This document shows positions 924 to 6,840 of a stretch of 64,000 nt of DNA, piece by piece. The notes beneath the pieces are model-generated. The model was not told where the DNA came from, ran no database searches, and worked only from the letters and a program-made list of their open reading frames with translations. The DNA is taken from NCBI GenBank assembly GCA_947624985.1, contig CANQMO010000005.1:1-64000 (forward strand), written 5' to 3'. Within the stretch, counting starts at the first letter, position 1. Every line of letters begins with the position of its first letter. The DNA comes from an uncultured Oscillospiraceae bacterium (GTDB lineage: Bacteria; Bacillota; Clostridia; Oscillospirales; Oscillospiraceae). The translations under genes were made by a program, and so were the position numbers.

Positions 924-1178
924 ATGAAGATTCTTCTTCCGGACAAAGTGTATGATGTTCTGGTTGTGATCGCACAGTACATCATCCCGCCGTTGGGTAC
1001 ACTGTATGGTGCACTGTGCCAGATTTGGGGATTTCCCTACGGAGAGCAGATACTGGCTACCCTGTTGGCAGTAGACACTTTCCTGTGCGCGCTGCTTGGA
1101 ATCAGCAACAAGAACTGGAAGGCATCTAAGACACTCCCCGGCGCGGAGGTTCCTGAGGAGGTGGACGGAAATGAGTAA
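924..1178 (+). CDS. Phage holin, Dp-1-like family
   Basis: 84 aa with two hydrophobic helices (~10-30 and ~43-61) separated by a GFPYGEQI turn. The pattern YDVL-(I/V)-PPLGTLYGAL-IWGFPYGEQ-LLGIS is characteristic of the Dp-1-type putative holin family. The product would form membrane holes that release the endolysin to the wall. A GGAGGT ribosome site lies upstream. The last 8 nt overlap the endolysin start, so translation is probably coupled. The AT-rich gap at 862-923 contains a weak AATAAAC/GTTTATT inverted repeat. Confidence 0.85.
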   Translation: MKILLPDKVYDVLVVIAQYIIPPLGTLYGALCQIWGFPYGEQILATLLAVDTFLCALLGISNKNWKASKTLPGAEVPEEVDGNE

Positions 1179-1971
1179 ATGCACCGCTGCCCAGGCCGTC
1201 AATGCGTTTGACTACTACATGGGCTACTACGAGAAAGCTTCGTCCCTGTATGCCAGTTCCCGAGATAAAAGCGTGTTTTCGCTCAACAAGGGTTCGGCCA
1301 ACTATACTTATTTCGGCTATCTGTGCGGCGTGCAGGGCCAGCCGTCCTGCGCTGCCACGGTCTCTACGGCGATATATGACGCCTGCGGCGAGAACAAGGC
1401 GACCGCGAAGGAAGTCATGTGGGGTGTGTGGCCGTATGTGGCATGTAACCAGTTGTATGACGCTGCTCCCAGCAACATGAAGGGCAGACGCGGCGCATGG
1501 TCTCCCAAGCCCGGTGATGTGATCGTGTTCAGCGATAACGGCAGTACCCGGACCCATACCGGCATGGTATACGCTGTCGATGGGACATATGTTTATACTA
1601 TGGAGGGCAACAGCGCCAATATGTGCCGCAAGCGGTCCTATCCGCTGAGCAGCACGTACATCTATGGCTACGTCCGGCCCAACTACGCCGCAGCTTCTCC
1701 TGACGACCCGGACCTGCCCGGTGCGGACAACTACGGCCCGGTTGTGTACGCCGATATCGGCCTGCATGAGCTTTCCAAGGGATGCGCCGGACCGGAGGTC
1801 AAGACCATCCAGCGGATCATCTTCGCCCGGGGAATCAACCATGAGGCCGTGGATGGGGAGTTTGGCCCCAAGACAAAGGCTGGCGTCATCGAGCTTCAGA
1901 AGCAGCTTGGTTTGACGCAGGACGGAGTTGTCGGCAAAGATACATGGAAAAAGGTCCTGACCGCACTGTAA
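1171..1971 (+). CDS. Endolysin: CHAP amidase/peptidase with peptidoglycan-binding domain
   Basis: 266 aa from ATG 1171, which has GAGGAGGT about 7 nt upstream; the upstream in-frame extension to 1096 lies inside the holin gene and is rejected. Residues ~45-165 form a CHAP-type NlpC/P60-like domain, with candidate nucleophile Cys60 in QGQPSCAAT and general base His129 in STRTHTGMVY. Residues ~203-264 are a PG_binding_1 repeat (GAGPEVKTIQ, DGEFGPKTKAGV, DGVVGKDTW). It would cut host peptidoglycan at the end of the lytic cycle. It overlaps the holin gene by 8 nt. Confidence 0.92.
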   Translation: MSKCTAAQAVNAFDYYMGYYEKASSLYASSRDKSVFSLNKGSANYTYFGYLCGVQGQPSCAATVSTAIYDACGENKATAKEVMWGVWPYVACNQLYDAAPSNMKGRRGAWSPKPGDVIVFSDNGSTRTHTGMVYAVDGTYVYTMEGNSANMCRKRSYPLSSTYIYGYVRPNYAAASPDDPDLPGADNYGPVVYADIGLHELSKGCAGPEVKTIQRIIFARGINHEAVDGEFGPKTKAGVIELQKQLGLTQDGVVGKDTWKKVLTAL

Positions 1972-2572: not shown

Positions 2573-2613
2573 AAGGGACGGAATCCTGACGGGTTCTGTC
2601 CCTTATTTTATTT
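2573..2613 (+). terminator. Rho-independent terminator after lysis operon
   Basis: GGGACGGAA (2575-2583) pairs with TTCTGTCCC (2594-2602) with one wobble/mismatch, and a T-rich tract (TTATTTTATTTT) follows. It would end the holin-endolysin-HTH transcript and separate it from the next cassette. Confidence 0.75.
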
Positions 2614-2722: not shown

Positions 2723-2887
2723 ATGGACGCAGAGTTGCGATTGATCCGAATTGGATATCCGCTGTCAGAGGCGGTCGGTATTGTCCATCAGAAACGCAAG
2801 GACGGAGACCTGGAACAGTTCATCCGCGAGAAGGAACGTGAGTACGAAGAAGATTGCAGAAAATACGCAAGGGAGGTAATAGGGTAA
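2723..2887 (+). CDS. Small cassette protein of unknown function
   Basis: 54 aa, starting at ATG 2723 with GAAAGGA upstream. The protein is highly charged (DAELRLIRIGYPLSEAV then a Lys/Arg/Glu-rich helix). Its TAA overlaps the next ATG (TAATG at 2885-2889), so it is the first gene of a coupled set. No family is recognised. The N-terminal IRxGYPLSEAV and the acidic/basic helix could be an adaptor or scaffold, which is a guess. Confidence 0.6.
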   Translation: MDAELRLIRIGYPLSEAVGIVHQKRKDGDLEQFIREKEREYEEDCRKYAREVIG

Positions 2888-3381
2888 TGGCAAACTATCC
2901 GATGTATCAGCCTGGCATGTATGGTCAGCAGCCGATGTATAACCCCTACATGGCCCAGCCCATACCGCAGCAGCCCGTACAACAGCCGGTGCAGCCGCAG
3001 ACTACGAATCAAACGGCTCAGCCAGCGTTTGTGTGCCGCCCCGTTGCGTCTGTTGAAGAGGCTATGGCGGTGCCAACAGACTTCAACGGCAACGTGATCG
3101 TGATGACCGATCTGGGCCATAAGTACATCTACACAAAGGTACTGAATCCAGCAACGGGAAGTTCCGTCTTTGAAAAGTACAAGAAAGAGGACGACGGGCA
3201 GAGTCAGGAAGATACGAAAGCGCAAGATAAAACGCCCGCCGTGGACTACACTCCGCACTTCACGGCGCTGGAAGAGCGCTTGGACCAAATGAGCGACCGT
3301 GTGGAGGACCTATTTGACCGCATCGAGAGCCAGAAGAAGGCCGCTATGCGGGCCGAGAGAAAGGCCGGTAAAGAGGAATGA
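2887..3381 (+). CDS. Pro/Gln/Tyr/Met-rich cassette protein with conserved C-terminal domain
   Basis: 164 aa from ATG 2887, with GGGAGG upstream. Residues 1-45 are low complexity (MYQPGMYGQQ, PYMAQPIPQQ) with repeated Met-Tyr-Pro-Gln. Residues ~50-105 look folded and read FNGNVIVMTDLGHKYIYTKV with an LNPATGSS turn. The tail is charged and predicted coiled coil (ERLDQMSDRVEDLFDRI). This arrangement of disordered head, small beta domain and coiled coil suggests a structural or assembly protein. It overlaps its neighbours by TAATG and ATGA. Confidence 0.65.
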   Translation: MANYPMYQPGMYGQQPMYNPYMAQPIPQQPVQQPVQPQTTNQTAQPAFVCRPVASVEEAMAVPTDFNGNVIVMTDLGHKYIYTKVLNPATGSSVFEKYKKEDDGQSQEDTKAQDKTPAVDYTPHFTALEERLDQMSDRVEDLFDRIESQKKAAMRAERKAGKEE

Positions 3382-3698
3382 ATCAGATGATGGGTCAGAT
3401 GGGCCAGCAGATGGGCCAGATGATGAACGGCATGATGCAGAACATGGTCGGCGGAATGATGCAACAGGCCATGGAAAAGCTCATGCAACGCTTTGGAGGC
3501 GGAATGCAAATGAACGGGAATTATCAACAGATGACGTATCAGCTGTTGCAGAATCAGGAAGTTCAACAGAAAGCTGGTCCGTTTATTAACGGGAAAAGCC
3601 AAGAGCAGTTAAAAGAGACGTTTCGCAATCTGAGCAAAGAGCGAGGAATCGACGCTGACGAGTTTGCCAAGCAGATGGGTGTGACGCTTCCGAAATAA
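3378..3698 (+). CDS. Met/Gln/Gly-rich cassette protein
   Basis: 106 aa, with its ATG overlapping the previous stop (ATGA). The first ~50 residues are an extreme Met-Gln-Gly repeat (MGQMGQQMGQMMNGMMQN), followed by a short helical domain ending in KERGIDADEFAKQMGVTLPK. Composition like this points to an amphipathic or self-associating helix rather than an enzyme. Function is unknown; it is co-translated with the two upstream cassette genes. Confidence 0.6.
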   Translation: MNQMMGQMGQQMGQMMNGMMQNMVGGMMQQAMEKLMQRFGGGMQMNGNYQQMTYQLLQNQEVQQKAGPFINGKSQEQLKETFRNLSKERGIDADEFAKQMGVTLPK

Positions 3699-3700
3699 AA

Positions 3701-3838
3701 AACACCAGCTACGGCCCATTCAGGTGTTCACTGGTTCAATAAGAGTATAGCACAAACAACTGAATATGGCAACCTTTTCTCTTTTCGGTTCTGCCGGTCC
3801 TGATTAAAACGGCTTCCCAACGTACACGTCCGGGAAGC
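3701..3838 (+). promoter_or_regulatory. Intergenic hairpins between cassette sub-operons
   Basis: The 177-nt gap holds two inverted repeats: AACACC/GGTGTT (3701-3706 with 3723-3728) and GCTTCCC/GGGAAGC (3812-3818 with 3832-3838), the second about 20 nt before the AAAGGAG site of the next gene. Neither has a proper T-run. They may set mRNA stability or translation of the following gene. No convincing sigma-70 promoter was found. Confidence 0.35.
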
Positions 3839-3875
3839 GCGCGCCCGGTGTGAATTTTGAAAGGAGATTTTTTTC

Positions 3876-4712
3876 ATGGCTTACGAAACTCCCATTGTCT
3901 ACAACCTGGACGGCGGTTCCGGCGGCAACGGCGGTGGCTGTGGCAACAGTATGTGGGGCGGCGACGGCAGCTGGATCTTTGCCTTCCTGATCATCGCCCT
4001 CATCTTCGGCGACCGCTGGGGCAACAACGGCAACAACGGCGGCAACAACGGAGGTGGAAATGCTGTGCCGACTTACATTCCCTATCCCATGTCCAGCATC
4101 GGCGGGTTCAACGCCTCTGGCGCTTTGACGCGGGCCGACCTGTGTCAGGACATGAACTTCCAGGAGGTCAAGAACGGCGTGGCCGGTGTGAGCGACGCGG
4201 TGGCTCTGGGCTTCAGCAACCTGAACTCCACCATCTGCAACCAGCAATATGACACCGCCCAGATGGTCAACGGTCTGAACACTACTCTGCTTCAGGGCTT
4301 CAACGCGGCCAACGTCGTGGCGCTCCAGAACCAGAATTCGACCCAGGCACAGATCGCTCAGTCCTTCTGCAACGAGAAAGCGGCTTTGGCCGACCTGAAG
4401 TACACCATCGCCTCCGAGGACTGTGCGACCCGTAACATCATCCAGAACGGTTTCCGTGACAGCATCGATGCGACCAACGCAGGAACCCGGGCGATTCTGG
4501 ACTACCTGTGCCAGGAGAAGATCGCCGACCTTCAGAGCGAGAATCAGGGTCTGCGCTTGGCTGCTTCCCAGAGCGCCCAGAACCAGTACCTCATCTCCCA
4601 GCTTCGGCCTTGCCCCGTTCCTGCTTACATAACCTGCAACCCTTATACATCTTCCTATGGTATCGGGCTGACCGGTAACGGCTGCGGCTGCAACACTGGC
4701 TGTGGCTGCTAA
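3876..4712 (+). CDS. Gly/Asn-rich membrane-spanning cassette protein with Cys-rich tail
   Basis: 278 aa with GAAAGGAG about 11 nt before the ATG. The order is: a Gly-rich head (GGSGGNGGGCGN), one membrane helix at ~31-45 (WIFAFLIIALIFG), a Gly/Asn repeat (WGNNGNNGGNNGG), a helical region from ~85-235 with repeated Gln/Asn, and a tail GCGCNTGCGC. There is no signal peptide or lipobox, so it looks like an integral membrane protein with flexible flanks. No known family is recognised. It is probably a membrane or surface component of the cassette. Confidence 0.65.
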   Translation: MAYETPIVYNLDGGSGGNGGGCGNSMWGGDGSWIFAFLIIALIFGDRWGNNGNNGGNNGGGNAVPTYIPYPMSSIGGFNASGALTRADLCQDMNFQEVKNGVAGVSDAVALGFSNLNSTICNQQYDTAQMVNGLNTTLLQGFNAANVVALQNQNSTQAQIAQSFCNEKAALADLKYTIASEDCATRNIIQNGFRDSIDATNAGTRAILDYLCQEKIADLQSENQGLRLAASQSAQNQYLISQLRPCPVPAYITCNPYTSSYGIGLTGNGCGCNTGCGC

Positions 4713-4761
4713 CCAAGGTTAAACCAAGATTTAACCAAGGTTTTAACCAAGCGTAACCAAG
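4711..4761 (+). repeat. Five AACCAAG direct repeats, iteron-like
   Basis: AACCAAG begins at 4711, 4722, 4733, 4745 and 4755, giving spacings of 11, 11, 12 and 10 bp, about one DNA turn. All copies are on the same strand, and they start on the stop codon of the upstream gene. Such phased repeats usually bind a protein on one face of the helix, as a regulator array or replication iterons. Confidence 0.7.
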
Positions 4762-4787
4762 ACTTCCCCAGCAAGGGTGACTATTTC

Positions 4788-4811
4788 GGGGCGGGGCATA
4801 TACTCCGCCCC
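4788..4811 (+). promoter_or_regulatory. GC-rich hairpin before cassette gene 4832
   Basis: GGGGCGG (4788-4794) pairs with CCGCCCC (4805-4811) around a short AT loop, 10 nt before the AGGAGG site of the next gene. It has no T-run, so it is more likely an RNA-processing or translation-control element than a terminator. Confidence 0.4.
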
Positions 4812-4831
4812 TGATTATTAGGAGGACTACT

Positions 4832-5050
4832 ATGAAAGAAAAAATCCGCGCCAAGATGGAAGCGCATGTAAAGTCTATTATCGAAAAGCCGATCATCACC
4901 GACCAGGAGTACATGCTGATCGCCGGGTATCTTTCCAAGCTTGAGTTTGAGGCTACCCAGGCCGAATCCAAGAAGCAGATGGAGGAACAGCAGAAGCAGT
5001 TCCGGGACAAGCTCGTTGATGTGCTTGGAGGTGCGAACTATGGCCTGTAA
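4832..5050 (+). CDS. Small helical cassette protein of unknown function
   Basis: 72 aa, with AGGAGG 8 nt before the ATG. It is nearly all charged amphipathic helix (KEKIRAKMEAHVKSIIEK, then ESKKQMEEQQKQFRDKLVDV). It could act as a coiled-coil scaffold. The stop overlaps the next gene by 11 nt. No family is recognised. Confidence 0.6.
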   Translation: MKEKIRAKMEAHVKSIIEKPIITDQEYMLIAGYLSKLEFEATQAESKKQMEEQQKQFRDKLVDVLGGANYGL

Positions 5051-5426
5051 ACCCGTTTGCCAGCTTTGCCCCCGCCTTGTCATCAGCACGGCGGTCAACT
5101 TTGACGGCACAAACGTAATCATTGGCCTTCCCGCCGGGAGTTATCAGAACGGCTGTAAGTATTGCATCGTGATCGCGCAGGCTATCCCGACCGCTGCGAC
5201 CGTCAACGCACCTGTAGTATTTTCCATCGGTACCGGCACAGAACGCTATCCCCTGACCACTTCCTGCTGCGCCCAGGTGACCGCTTGCGGCATCCGCACC
5301 CGTACCCGGTACAGCACTGTCGTCTCCACCAGCGCAACTGGAGGCACGTTTAAGATGATCGGTAAACCATGCTGCATGCCGAACAATGACTTGACCGCCA
5401 TCGACGGCACGGCTCCGACGGCGTAA
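5040..5426 (+). CDS. Cys-rich beta-structured cassette protein
   Basis: 128 aa from ATG 5040, overlapping the previous gene by 11 nt; the longer in-frame ORF to 4941 is rejected. It starts MACKPVCQLCPR and carries Cys residues throughout (CKYC, SCCAQVTACG, KPCCMP). The rest is rich in Val/Thr/Ser/Ile alternations typical of beta strands (FDGTNVIIGLPAGSY, VFSIGTGTERYPL). It is predicted to be a compact beta-sandwich stabilised by metal or disulfides, like a decoration or surface protein. This is inference from composition. Confidence 0.6.
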   Translation: MACKPVCQLCPRLVISTAVNFDGTNVIIGLPAGSYQNGCKYCIVIAQAIPTAATVNAPVVFSIGTGTERYPLTTSCCAQVTACGIRTRTRYSTVVSTSATGGTFKMIGKPCCMPNNDLTAIDGTAPTA

Positions 5427-5438
5427 GGAGGTTACACT

Positions 5439-6314
5439 ATGGGTAGAAAACTTCTTATCATGCCGCCTTATCATCCTGTGGAGTATGAAGGCGATATGGG
5501 CCGTGAGATCGAGCGCCGCTCCGAGATGTACCGTGACGCGGAAATGCGCACGGGAAGGCGTGATGACTATCGGCGCACTGAACCGAGAATGGGCGGTCGT
5601 GACGACTATCGTCGCGAAGATACGCGCATGGGCGGACGCGACGAGGACTATATGCGCATGGGTGGTACCAGGTACTATCCTGACGAGTTACGCGGCCCGT
5701 ACATGGGAGGCTATGAGCCTGAGATGCGCCGCCGCCGTGACAGCCGTGGCAGGTACACTTCGGCCCGTATGGGCGGATACGATGAGCCTTGGATGGGCGA
5801 GGACGACGACATGGAGATGCGCTATCCGAAGCGTGTGTACTTCCCGCAGGCGATGCACAAGATCGGTTTCTCCGTTGACGGCGAGATGGAGCGGATTCCC
5901 GACGAGGTACAAACGGACTACCGCACCATGGCCGGTTACGAGAACATGGACGAGATGGCGACCAGAAAGGGGAAGATGAACATGAGCGGACGCGCTTCTG
6001 GCGATGGCGTCATGCCGTTCAACAAAGAAATGGCTATGGAGTGGACCAGCCAGATGGAGAACGCAGACGGCACGAAAGGTCCGCACTGGACGATGGACCA
6101 GGTAAAAACCGTTATGGCACAGCACAAGATACAGTGTGACCCGTATGAGTTTTATGCGGCCCTTAACATGGTCTATTCGGACTATGGTGCCGTAGCCAAA
6201 AAGATGAACGTCAACACCATGGACTTCTATGTCTGCATGGCCAAAGCGTTCCTGGACGACCCGGACGCTGGCGATGAAAAACTGGCCCGGTACTACGAGT
6301 ACGTCGTGAAGTAA
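5439..6314 (+). CDS. Arg/Met/Gly-repeat cassette protein with helical C-terminal domain
   Basis: 291 aa with AAGGAGG before the ATG. Residues ~25-125 carry irregular repeats of the form RMGGRDDYRR/MGGRDEDYMR/MGGYDEP, an RGG-like basic low-complexity region that could bind nucleic acid or self-associate. Residues ~185-291 form a folded alpha-helical domain (GPHWTMDQVKTVMAQHKI, DPYEFYAALNMVYSDYG, NTMDFYVCMAKAFLDD). Similar C-terminal domains exist in hypothetical proteins of gut Clostridia as far as I recall, with no function known to me. It is the last large gene of the cassette. Confidence 0.65.
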   Translation: MGRKLLIMPPYHPVEYEGDMGREIERRSEMYRDAEMRTGRRDDYRRTEPRMGGRDDYRREDTRMGGRDEDYMRMGGTRYYPDELRGPYMGGYEPEMRRRRDSRGRYTSARMGGYDEPWMGEDDDMEMRYPKRVYFPQAMHKIGFSVDGEMERIPDEVQTDYRTMAGYENMDEMATRKGKMNMSGRASGDGVMPFNKEMAMEWTSQMENADGTKGPHWTMDQVKTVMAQHKIQCDPYEFYAALNMVYSDYGAVAKKMNVNTMDFYVCMAKAFLDDPDAGDEKLARYYEYVVK

Positions 6315-6320
6315 AATCAA

Positions 6321-6350
6321 GCCGGGGCGAGCAATCGTCCCGGCATTTTG
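6321..6350 (+). terminator. Terminator after gene 5439-6314
   Basis: GCCGGG (6321-6326) pairs with CCCGGC (6339-6344) around a 12-nt loop, followed by ATTTTG. The short T-run makes it a modest terminator for the cassette transcript. Confidence 0.6.
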
Positions 6351-6404
6351 TAAAGTGTACTTATAATAATTACCGTCAAAAATGAAAGTTTGAGGCAAAT
6401 CACT

Positions 6405-6626
6405 TTGAATTATCGCAATCAACTGGATGCTCTGGACATCCTGAACGTGCTTGCGTTCTGGCTCGGCCTTGAAAACCTCCGCGAGAACCGTGAACAGTCT
6501 GCACACAACGACGTGAACGCCGCCAATGAGAAACAGGCCGCATTGTTGCTGGACGAGATATCGGATCAGTTCGAGGAAATCAAGGCGATGCTGGCAAGAG
6601 TGATTGAACTGCTGGAGGAAAAATAG
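6405..6626 (+). CDS. Small conserved helical protein at prophage end
   Basis: 73 aa from TTG 6405, preferred over the upstream TTG 6390 because GAGG at 6392-6395 is 9 nt away. It begins MNYRNQLDALDILNVLAFWLGLENL and ends in a coiled-coil helix (DQFEEIKAMLARVIELLEEK). I recall similar short proteins with an 'MNY...LD.LN..SF.LG..N' start in Clostridia mobile elements, function unknown. It is the last gene before the putative attachment region. Confidence 0.6.
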   Translation: MNYRNQLDALDILNVLAFWLGLENLRENREQSAHNDVNAANEKQAALLLDEISDQFEEIKAMLARVIELLEEK

Positions 6627-6764
6627 GTCGCACCTCAAGTCGCACCTTAAACCGATATAAAATGTACTAAAACGCTATTTTCTGCCTTTTCTACTCTCTG
6701 TTTTTTGGCCGACAAAAAGCCCTGCAATCCTTGAAAACACTGGAGTTGCAGGACTTTGCTGTTC
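6627..6764. other. Candidate prophage attachment end next to tRNA-Pro
   Basis: The gap between the last phage gene and tRNA-Pro holds two direct copies of GTCGCACCT (6627-6635 and 6639-6647), of the kind that serve as integrase arm sites. It also holds CCTGCAA/TTGCAGG (6721-6727 with 6746-6752); on the minus strand this is followed by GCTTTTTG, which reads as a Rho-independent terminator for the tRNA transcript. The tRNA 3' end faces the phage genes, as expected for integration into a tRNA 3' end. No integrase is visible in the window. Confidence 0.45.
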
Positions 6765-6840
6765 TGGTCGGAGTGAGGTGACTTGAACACCCGACCTCCT
6801 GGTCCCGAACCAGGCGCGCTACCAACTGCGCTACACCCCG
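6765..6840 (-). tRNA. tRNA-Pro (CGG)
   Basis: On the minus strand, acceptor arm CGGGGTG pairs with CACTCCG, followed by discriminator A and an encoded CCA (6765-6767). The anticodon loop TTCGGGA gives CGG. D-arm and T-arm (GGTTCAAGTC-type) are intact. Length is 76 nt. Confidence 0.95.

Follow-up and report, generated by a model that had tools for sequence, protein, structure and literature searches.

What do the genes do that follow the lysis module of a prophage in an uncultured Oscillospiraceae bacterium? The stretch of DNA that raises this question (64,000 nucleotides of contig CANQMO010000005.1, here called the window) opens within phage genes, and its lysis module is followed by eight small open reading frames (ORFs), P1 to P8, all on the + strand and ending at 6626. 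A reading made from the letters of the window, here the sequence-only reading, had described them as an eight-gene cassette. We find that these ORFs belong to a conserved module whose genes keep the same order in many phage genomes. The unit proposed earlier therefore stands, although not at its proposed size: the core comprises five genes, P2-P3-P4-P6-P7, and P1, P5 and P8 are optional. The eight ORFs of the window are as follows.

2723..2887, + strand: P1, 54 amino acids (aa), optional; relative in L096 only
2887..3381, + strand: P2, 164 aa, core; matches phrog_21718, 191 related ORFs
3378..3698, + strand: P3, 106 aa, core, Met/Gln/Gly-rich; 90 related ORFs
3876..4712, + strand: P4, 278 aa, constant member; matches phrog_16490, 230 related ORFs
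4832..5050, + strand: P5, 72 aa, optional; present in 7 further loci
5040..5426, + strand: P6, 128 aa, slot gene; modelled as a beta protein, 101 related ORFs
5439..6314, + strand: P7, 291 aa, core; DUF7841 domain at residues 184-287, 55 related ORFs
~6405..6626, + strand: P8, about 73 aa, TTG start, optional; a terminator-like hairpin lies between P7 and P8

Conservation of the gene order

Iterative profile searches gave the overall order P2-P3-P4-(P5/P8)-P6-P7. The counts of related ORFs listed above were made in 232 mapped sequences (231 loci and the window), and that for P3 is uncertain because this protein is of low complexity. Loci entered the set for encoding P6, P4, P7 or P6T, a second type of slot gene that is described below, and short contigs were scored as misses. 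The first mapping of the families used a threshold of E<1e-3, and the later counts (of the 232 sequences, gene order, gaps and the upstream gene P0) used E<1e-5. Loci with identical P4 were merged in the gap, P0 and order counts, near-identical ones being kept, and the order count leaves out L001, which duplicates the window.

Comparison of gene order across loci, which had been suggested earlier as the way to recognize a system, reveals a co-conserved unit. Among 204 loci with distinct P4, the window included, 175 carry at least three core families, and in 171 of these 175 they stand in a single order on the same strand. Four loci depart from this pattern: the Crassvirales loci L002, L003 and L186, where P7 precedes P4, and L063, which has an extra P6T remnant on the opposite strand. 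P4 is present in 81 of the 85 loci found through P6 and in 78 of the 80 found through P6T (74 and 76 distinct P4 sets); the searches for slot genes did not depend on P4.

The search for P6 in viral contigs yielded 39 loci, and a search with one peptide pattern in one genome per species yielded 46. By their titles, nearly all of the latter are from Clostridia, for example Oscillospiraceae, Ruminococcus and Lachnospiraceae; a few are unexpected bins, Phocaeicola and Mycoplasmataceae among them. The full series P2-P3-P4-P6-P7 is also found in one other genome of the same genus as the source and in Anaerotruncus colihominis DSM 17241 (locus L067). The relatives in gut Clostridia that the sequence-only reading mentioned thus exist, but they are confined neither to Clostridia nor to prophage ends, as they occur in head modules, in Crassvirales, in a Bacteroides phage and, for P4, in archaeal viruses.

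The slot gene behind P4

Behind P4 lies a slot for alternative small beta proteins. In the window it holds P6. Its place is taken by P6T, another beta-type protein, in Dulem viruses 33, 35 and 39 and in Butyrivibrio virus Ceridwen, and by P6c in Crassvirales. The slot gene starts no more than 300 nt after P4 in 160 of the 190 loci with enough sequence, and the median gap is 31 nt for P6T (98 pairs), 77 nt for P6 (85) and 17 nt for P6c (5). P6T has at least 499 confirmed stretches in viral contigs, of which the best 80 were used, and it occurs together with P6 in one locus only. A constant P4 followed by alternative small beta proteins is the pattern expected of a carrier with exchangeable tips.

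The AF2 model of P6 (pLDDT 77.7, pTM 0.69) has eight strands and is nearly all beta, in keeping with the earlier description of a Cys-rich beta protein. The first near-invariant Cys is at residue 7 and the first strand begins at residue 12. Among the hits of a structure search with P6 are crAss-like proteins (E 6.0e-4, 6.3e-4 and 1.5e-2), and one crAss-like protein of 294 aa is matched both by the P6 model and by the DUF7841 domain of P7.

P4, the constant member

Residues 16-278 of P4 align to positions 20-281 of the 286 in the phrog_16490 profile (E 1.5e-22; this profile has no curated cut-off). The window protein is Gly/Asn-rich with a hydrophobic segment, as had been stated, and consists of this Gly-flanked segment at residues 29-45, a long Gln/Asn-rich part and a Cys-rich C-terminus. 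The same features recur among 186 distinct homologues longer than 180 aa: 176 have the hydrophobic segment and 180 have two or more Cys among their final 15 residues. A CCC triplet is present in 176 of these homologues and is missing from the P4 of the window. In all 176 cases the stretch of 15 residues ahead of the segment carries a net charge of 0, -1 or -2, and the stretch behind it one of -1, 0 or +1, a pattern that is unusual for a membrane anchor.

P4 ranges over phages of Clostridia, Crassvirales, a phage of Bacteroides uniformis and viruses assigned to Methanomassiliicoccales archaea; the archaeal virus records themselves bear the phrog_16490 label, and the hosts are as stated in these records. 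The P4 of the B. uniformis phage, C3_41T2LP, aligns over 250 columns with that of archaeal vir335 (30%, E 2e-26) and matches that of a Clostridia phage at E 1e-11. In C3_41T2LP, P4 is followed by P6c, a coiled-coil protein, an RG-rich protein and a DUF7841 protein (E 5.3e-16, past the curated cut-off). The only records with a P4 match in a plasmid collection are NZ_OY725797.1, a very small record of 2307 bp from Parabacteroides distasonis, and NZ_AP023416.1 from Vescimonas fastidiosa.

P7 and the genes that replace it

P7 carries DUF7841 (PF25223) at E 8.7e-32 and 110.2 bits, against a curated cut-off of 25.2, and the source genome holds this domain in one copy. Its model shows an RG-rich N-terminus of low confidence to about residue 190 and a helical C-terminus with pLDDT of about 87-98 from residue 191, which agrees with the earlier picture of an RGG-like protein with a folded C-terminus. 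DUF7841 is present in 45 of the 85 P6 loci but in none of the 80 P6T loci; other genes fill the place behind the slot.

What these genes have in common with P7 is composition. Windows of 30 residues in which R, G, Y, D and S together make up 70% or more are found in 130 of 183 distinct post-slot genes (P7 included) and in 33 of 1868 other + strand ORFs, whether real genes or not. A narrower RDSxGRY-type motif, picked post hoc from the sequences, occurs in 68 of 209 post-slot genes compared with 52 of 4081 ORFs of both strands, again real genes or not.

The gene behind P6 is replaced at L054:15408-15713, L047:13179-14186 and L093:10408-10992 by genes without Pfam hits at the cut-off; one of them is rubrerythrin-like at E 0.0034, which is under the cut-off. 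At L007:10052-10915 and L081:10474-11121, the ORF in the P7 position after P6 or another slot gene has the look, by eye, of what we take to be an HNH-type homing endonuclease.

P2, P3 and the optional genes

P2 matches phrog_21718 (E 2.2e-5). It has the Pro, Gln and Tyr-rich composition noted before, which lies in its N-terminus, together with a small conserved domain seen in the alignment and, by eye, a probable C-terminal coiled coil. The Met-Gln-Gly richness ascribed to P3 was likewise found. No match past a curated cut-off or better than E 0.009 was obtained for P1, P3, P5, P6 or P8 in Pfam, PHROGs and NCBIfam.

The optional genes have few relatives. P1 has one weak relative, just 5′ of P2 in L096 (E 6e-4). 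Besides the window and its duplicate L001, the 7 loci with P5, three of which are nearly identical, always carry it between P4 and P6. P8 is found at E<1e-3 in 7 further loci, after P4, P6 or P7, and only L092 has it at E<1e-5.

A further optional ORF, P0 (phrog_3754), of about 125 aa, lies directly 5′ of P2 in 57 of the 153 loci that have P2 and at least 700 nt of upstream sequence, at a median gap of 0 nt (for example L105:4058-4432). Ten aligned copies share an invariant Asp-Cys, His and Asp in papain-like order, and the Asp-Cys falls inside the first 40 residues in 81 of 92 distinct P0 hits. Because P0 has no informative match in Pfam, NCBIfam or the PDB, the papain-like character is one that we infer from these residues, and P0 is apparently an optional enzyme of the block. 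P1 occupies the place before P2 in the window, which is without P0. The earlier statement that no enzyme is present is correct for the window and may not extend to these relatives.

Layout of the window

The position of the block behind holin, endolysin and helix-turn-helix (HTH) genes, as first described, was confirmed by family matches. A small ORF with a hydrophobic stretch also sits among these lysis-side genes before P1. The features outside the eight ORFs are the following; the first two hairpins come from a consensus scan only.

924..1178, + strand: holin, outside the block; Phage_holin_Dp1 (PF16938), E 5.6e-20
1171..1971, + strand: endolysin with CHAP and peptidoglycan-binding domains, outside the block; PF05257, E 5.4e-8, and PF01471, E 2.1e-13
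2353-2556: HTH gene, GerE match
2573..2604, + strand: terminator-like hairpin before P1, 14-pair stem, T-rich tail
4788..4811, + strand: terminator-like hairpin in the P4-P5 interval, T-rich tail
6321..6344, + strand: terminator-like hairpin after P7, 10-pair stem with 8 G-C pairs, T-rich tail
6765..6840, - strand: tRNA-Pro, found by ARAGORN and Rfam

The eight ORFs are there, but the tight packing with overlaps of 1-11 nt that had been claimed for them is not. Overlaps occur at three of the seven junctions only (P1/P2, 1 nt; P2/P3, 4 nt; P5/P6, 11 nt), and the other genes are separated by 177 nt (P3-P4), 119 nt (P4-P5), 12 nt (P6-P7) and about 75-90 nt (P7-P8), with hairpins splitting the block. 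Terminator-like hairpins flank P1-P7 on both sides. Between 2000 and 6900 we count 8 terminator-like sites where shuffled sequences give a mean of 5.4 (sd 2.7), and the hairpins are therefore treated as candidates only. Promoter-like sites are at the level of chance, with 3 found and 3.5 expected.

The GC content is 0.49-0.59 on the block side of the tRNA-Pro gene and about 0.65 beyond it. This gene probably marks the prophage end and may have served as the attachment site. A strong hairpin lies at 2605-2722, between the HTH gene and P1; the region folds at -31.5 kcal/mol, a value that has no shuffle control, and has no Rfam match at the gathering threshold.

Genomic position in other viruses

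The block is often found amid late genes, with no single fixed place. Neighbouring genes were assigned to PHROG families in two scans of selected genes (88 of 249 upstream and 84 of 321 downstream in the first, with 12 duplicate or unsuitable loci excluded beforehand; 52 of 122 and 58 of 189, plus one added, in the other), and the figures given here are for families among the 25 commonest. Upstream, endolysins and amidases are the commonest families in the first scan (the largest with 11 of 88), and phrog_3754, the family of P0, leads the other with 8 of 52, followed by an endolysin family with 6 of 52. Downstream, integrase and recombinase families reach 11 of 84 each, with overlap between them. 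In the P6T set a DNA helicase family (9 of 59) is followed by integrase (8), major head protein (4) and scaffold (3). In L004 and L006 the block has portal or minor capsid genes on one side and the major capsid gene on the other.

In the Crassvirales genomes cr115_1 and cr10_1, P7, P4 and P6c stand behind a gene for a holin and a second gene, either LysB-like or hypothetical. The homology of Crassvirales proteins to those of the window reaches E 5e-16 for P7 and 8e-10 for P4 by tblastn. Some Crassvirales use an alternative code in which TAG is read as Gln. In cr115_1 (L002), some block genes contain in-frame TAG and are open only when it is read in this way.

Repeat pairs lie beside reverse transcriptases in two loci (L003:3152-3246 with 3423-3517, and L104:6401-6522 with 6675-6796). 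Where the two copies of L003 differ, it is mainly at positions at which one of them has A, a pattern known from diversity-generating retroelements. The intragenic copies are in a large gene and a tail gene, outside the block.

Possible functions of the block

We tentatively propose that the core makes an accessory adhesion device, with P4 as stalk or anchor and the slot protein as an exchangeable tip, and that the block is transferable between phages; taken jointly, we place these claims slightly short of an even chance. The device would most likely be on the virion, assembled late in infection. P4 would be its constant scaffold, anchored or bundled through the Gly-flanked hydrophobic segment; its long helical part would serve as the stalk, and the Cys-rich tail may link it to the tip. 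The slot gene would supply a small, probably trimeric, beta tip that could be exchanged. P7 or its replacements, with their RG/Tyr-rich stretch and helical parts, would work with this tip, perhaps as assembly factor or connector, and P2 and P3 would be late helpers. The model of P6 resembles some proteins named tail fibre in a BFVD Foldseek search, which makes the earlier suggestion of surface-structure parts compatible with our results. By a crude test, secretion signals are mostly lacking in the slot, P2, P3 and P7 proteins. As the tips rarely have such signals, release at lysis, and hence the virion, is favoured over display on a living lysogen.

A number of observations weigh against this proposal. 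The evidence for a slot is one of position and general fold, because the slot types are not detectably homologous: profile comparison finds no similarity between P6 and P6T (hhalign Prob 1.4%) or between P6 and P6c (Prob 0.9%), the latter beside the crAss-like proteins among the structure-search hits of P6. The slot gene lies more than 300 nt from P4 in 25 of the 190 loci, and none is recognized in 5. Only one of 22 strong BFVD matches of P6 is named tail fibre; the best matches are other uncharacterized small phage proteins, the output gives no aligned ranges, and the root mean square deviation to named fibres is large (9.6 Å for Epa13 and 6.7 Å for a collagen-like one). The match of P6 in the PDB is weak (Foldseek E 0.18). 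The slot gene of Dulem virus 35 (L006) resembles BclA_C (PF18573) over positions 13-127 of 128, at E 4.4e-7 and 30.3 bits, which is under the cut-off of 38; it is the only one of nine slot genes tested to have any such hit, the other 8 having none, and the P6 of the window is also without a hit. The hydrophobic segment of P4 could simply be a membrane helix, and in 29 of 203 P4 ORFs a Lys or Arg falls in the 12 residues ahead of an N-terminal hydrophobic stretch. In two archaeal viruses, as in Dulem virus 40, the profiles recognize P4 with neither a slot gene nor P7, and the archaeal case speaks against a device of this kind. The internal terminator-like hairpins would also suit separately expressed prophage genes. 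Finally, the location on the virion is one that we infer.

A larger version of the proposal, which we regard as doubtful, is a multi-gene attachment organelle in which a P4 stalk with a one-gene slot is joined by an RG/Tyr-rich and helical partner and often by a papain-like enzyme that trims or cross-links it. Its central gene would be present in viruses of two domains of life, and the whole would pass from one virus lineage to another, unrelated one and turn up at different genome positions (in the head module, behind lysis genes or beside integrase), possibly as an adaptation to the animal gut.

The hydrophobic segment of nearly all long P4 homologues also invites a different explanation, in which P4 is a membrane protein of the lysogen that displays or organizes the slot protein at the host envelope and so alters adhesion or excludes other phages. 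Such genes would be morons, for which a place beside the integrases and recombinases found downstream is usual, and the window copy is bounded by terminator-like hairpins. We think this unlikely. The charges flanking the segment fit the positive-inside rule poorly, secretion signals are mostly absent, by our crude test, from the slot, P2, P3 and P7 proteins, promoter-like sites do not exceed chance, and the block is found in Crassvirales and in head modules as well.

Low-complexity stretches, seen by eye in four of the five core proteins (P2, P3, P4 and P7), might instead build an intracellular assembly or condensate that serves as a compartment or scaffold for late assembly or lysis; the mostly low-confidence first part of P7 and the recurrence of both RG-rich motifs in post-slot genes would fit. 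This explanation, which leaves an exchangeable slot with fibre- or BclA_C-like proteins unaccounted for and finds no nucleic-acid-binding or enzyme domain among the window genes in Pfam, PHROGs or NCBIfam, we judge to be quite unlikely. An accessory lysis module, with P4 as a membrane-active partner of holin and endolysin and the other proteins as its regulators, would account for the endolysins and amidases, which head the named upstream families in one scan and are common in the other as well, and for the block of cr115_1 behind holin and LysB-like genes. It is nevertheless improbable in our view, given that L004 and L006 carry the block among head genes and that the likeness of the slot proteins is to fibre or BclA_C domains, not to lysis proteins.

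Relation to known systems

The adhesion device proposed here would differ from the tip domains of tail fibres in that P6 is a separate 128-aa protein with no fibre shaft and the proposed stalk, P4, is encoded by another gene; in the block the type of tip varies while P4 stays. The C-terminal domain of BclA is the trimeric tip of a filament protein of the spore surface. It is this domain that the slot gene of Dulem virus 35 resembles below the cut-off, whereas the P6 of the window is of another type. The collagen-like fibre proteins of EHEC prophages are also prophage-borne and combine a trimeric coiled coil with a C-terminal trimerization domain (PMC3368898); there stalk and tip are in one polypeptide, whereas the block has separate genes and trimerization of its tip is putative. 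T4 Hoc and the Ig-like adhesins of gut phages are similar in being accessory modular surface proteins that also occur in crAss-like phages, but the adhesins are chains of Ig-like domains and the block is a set of several separate small genes (PMC10385173, PMC13370021). Pfam, PHROGs and NCBIfam scans gave no Ig-like family hit for the window genes.

A literature search, outside which preprints and most subscription papers fell, found no mention of DUF7841 and no description of the block, including in the accessible part of PMC8008677, nor of phage C3_41T2LP. The sequence-only reading was right that no function has been assigned, yet some of the parts are already catalogued, without function, as DUF7841, phrog_16490 and phrog_21718. 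In the records examined, the parts appear as hypothetical proteins, as domains of unknown function (DUF) or under names of doubtful value, for example ‘spike protein/glycoprotein’ or ‘RNA polymerase sigma factor/ubiquitin-like’. An ordered block that recurs across phages of Clostridia and, in part, in Crassvirales and a Bacteroides phage, with P4 reaching into archaeal viruses, is likely to be generally useful. Should it prove to be an adhesion device whose tips can be swapped, it would provide a way into the question of how gut phages attach to cells or mucus.

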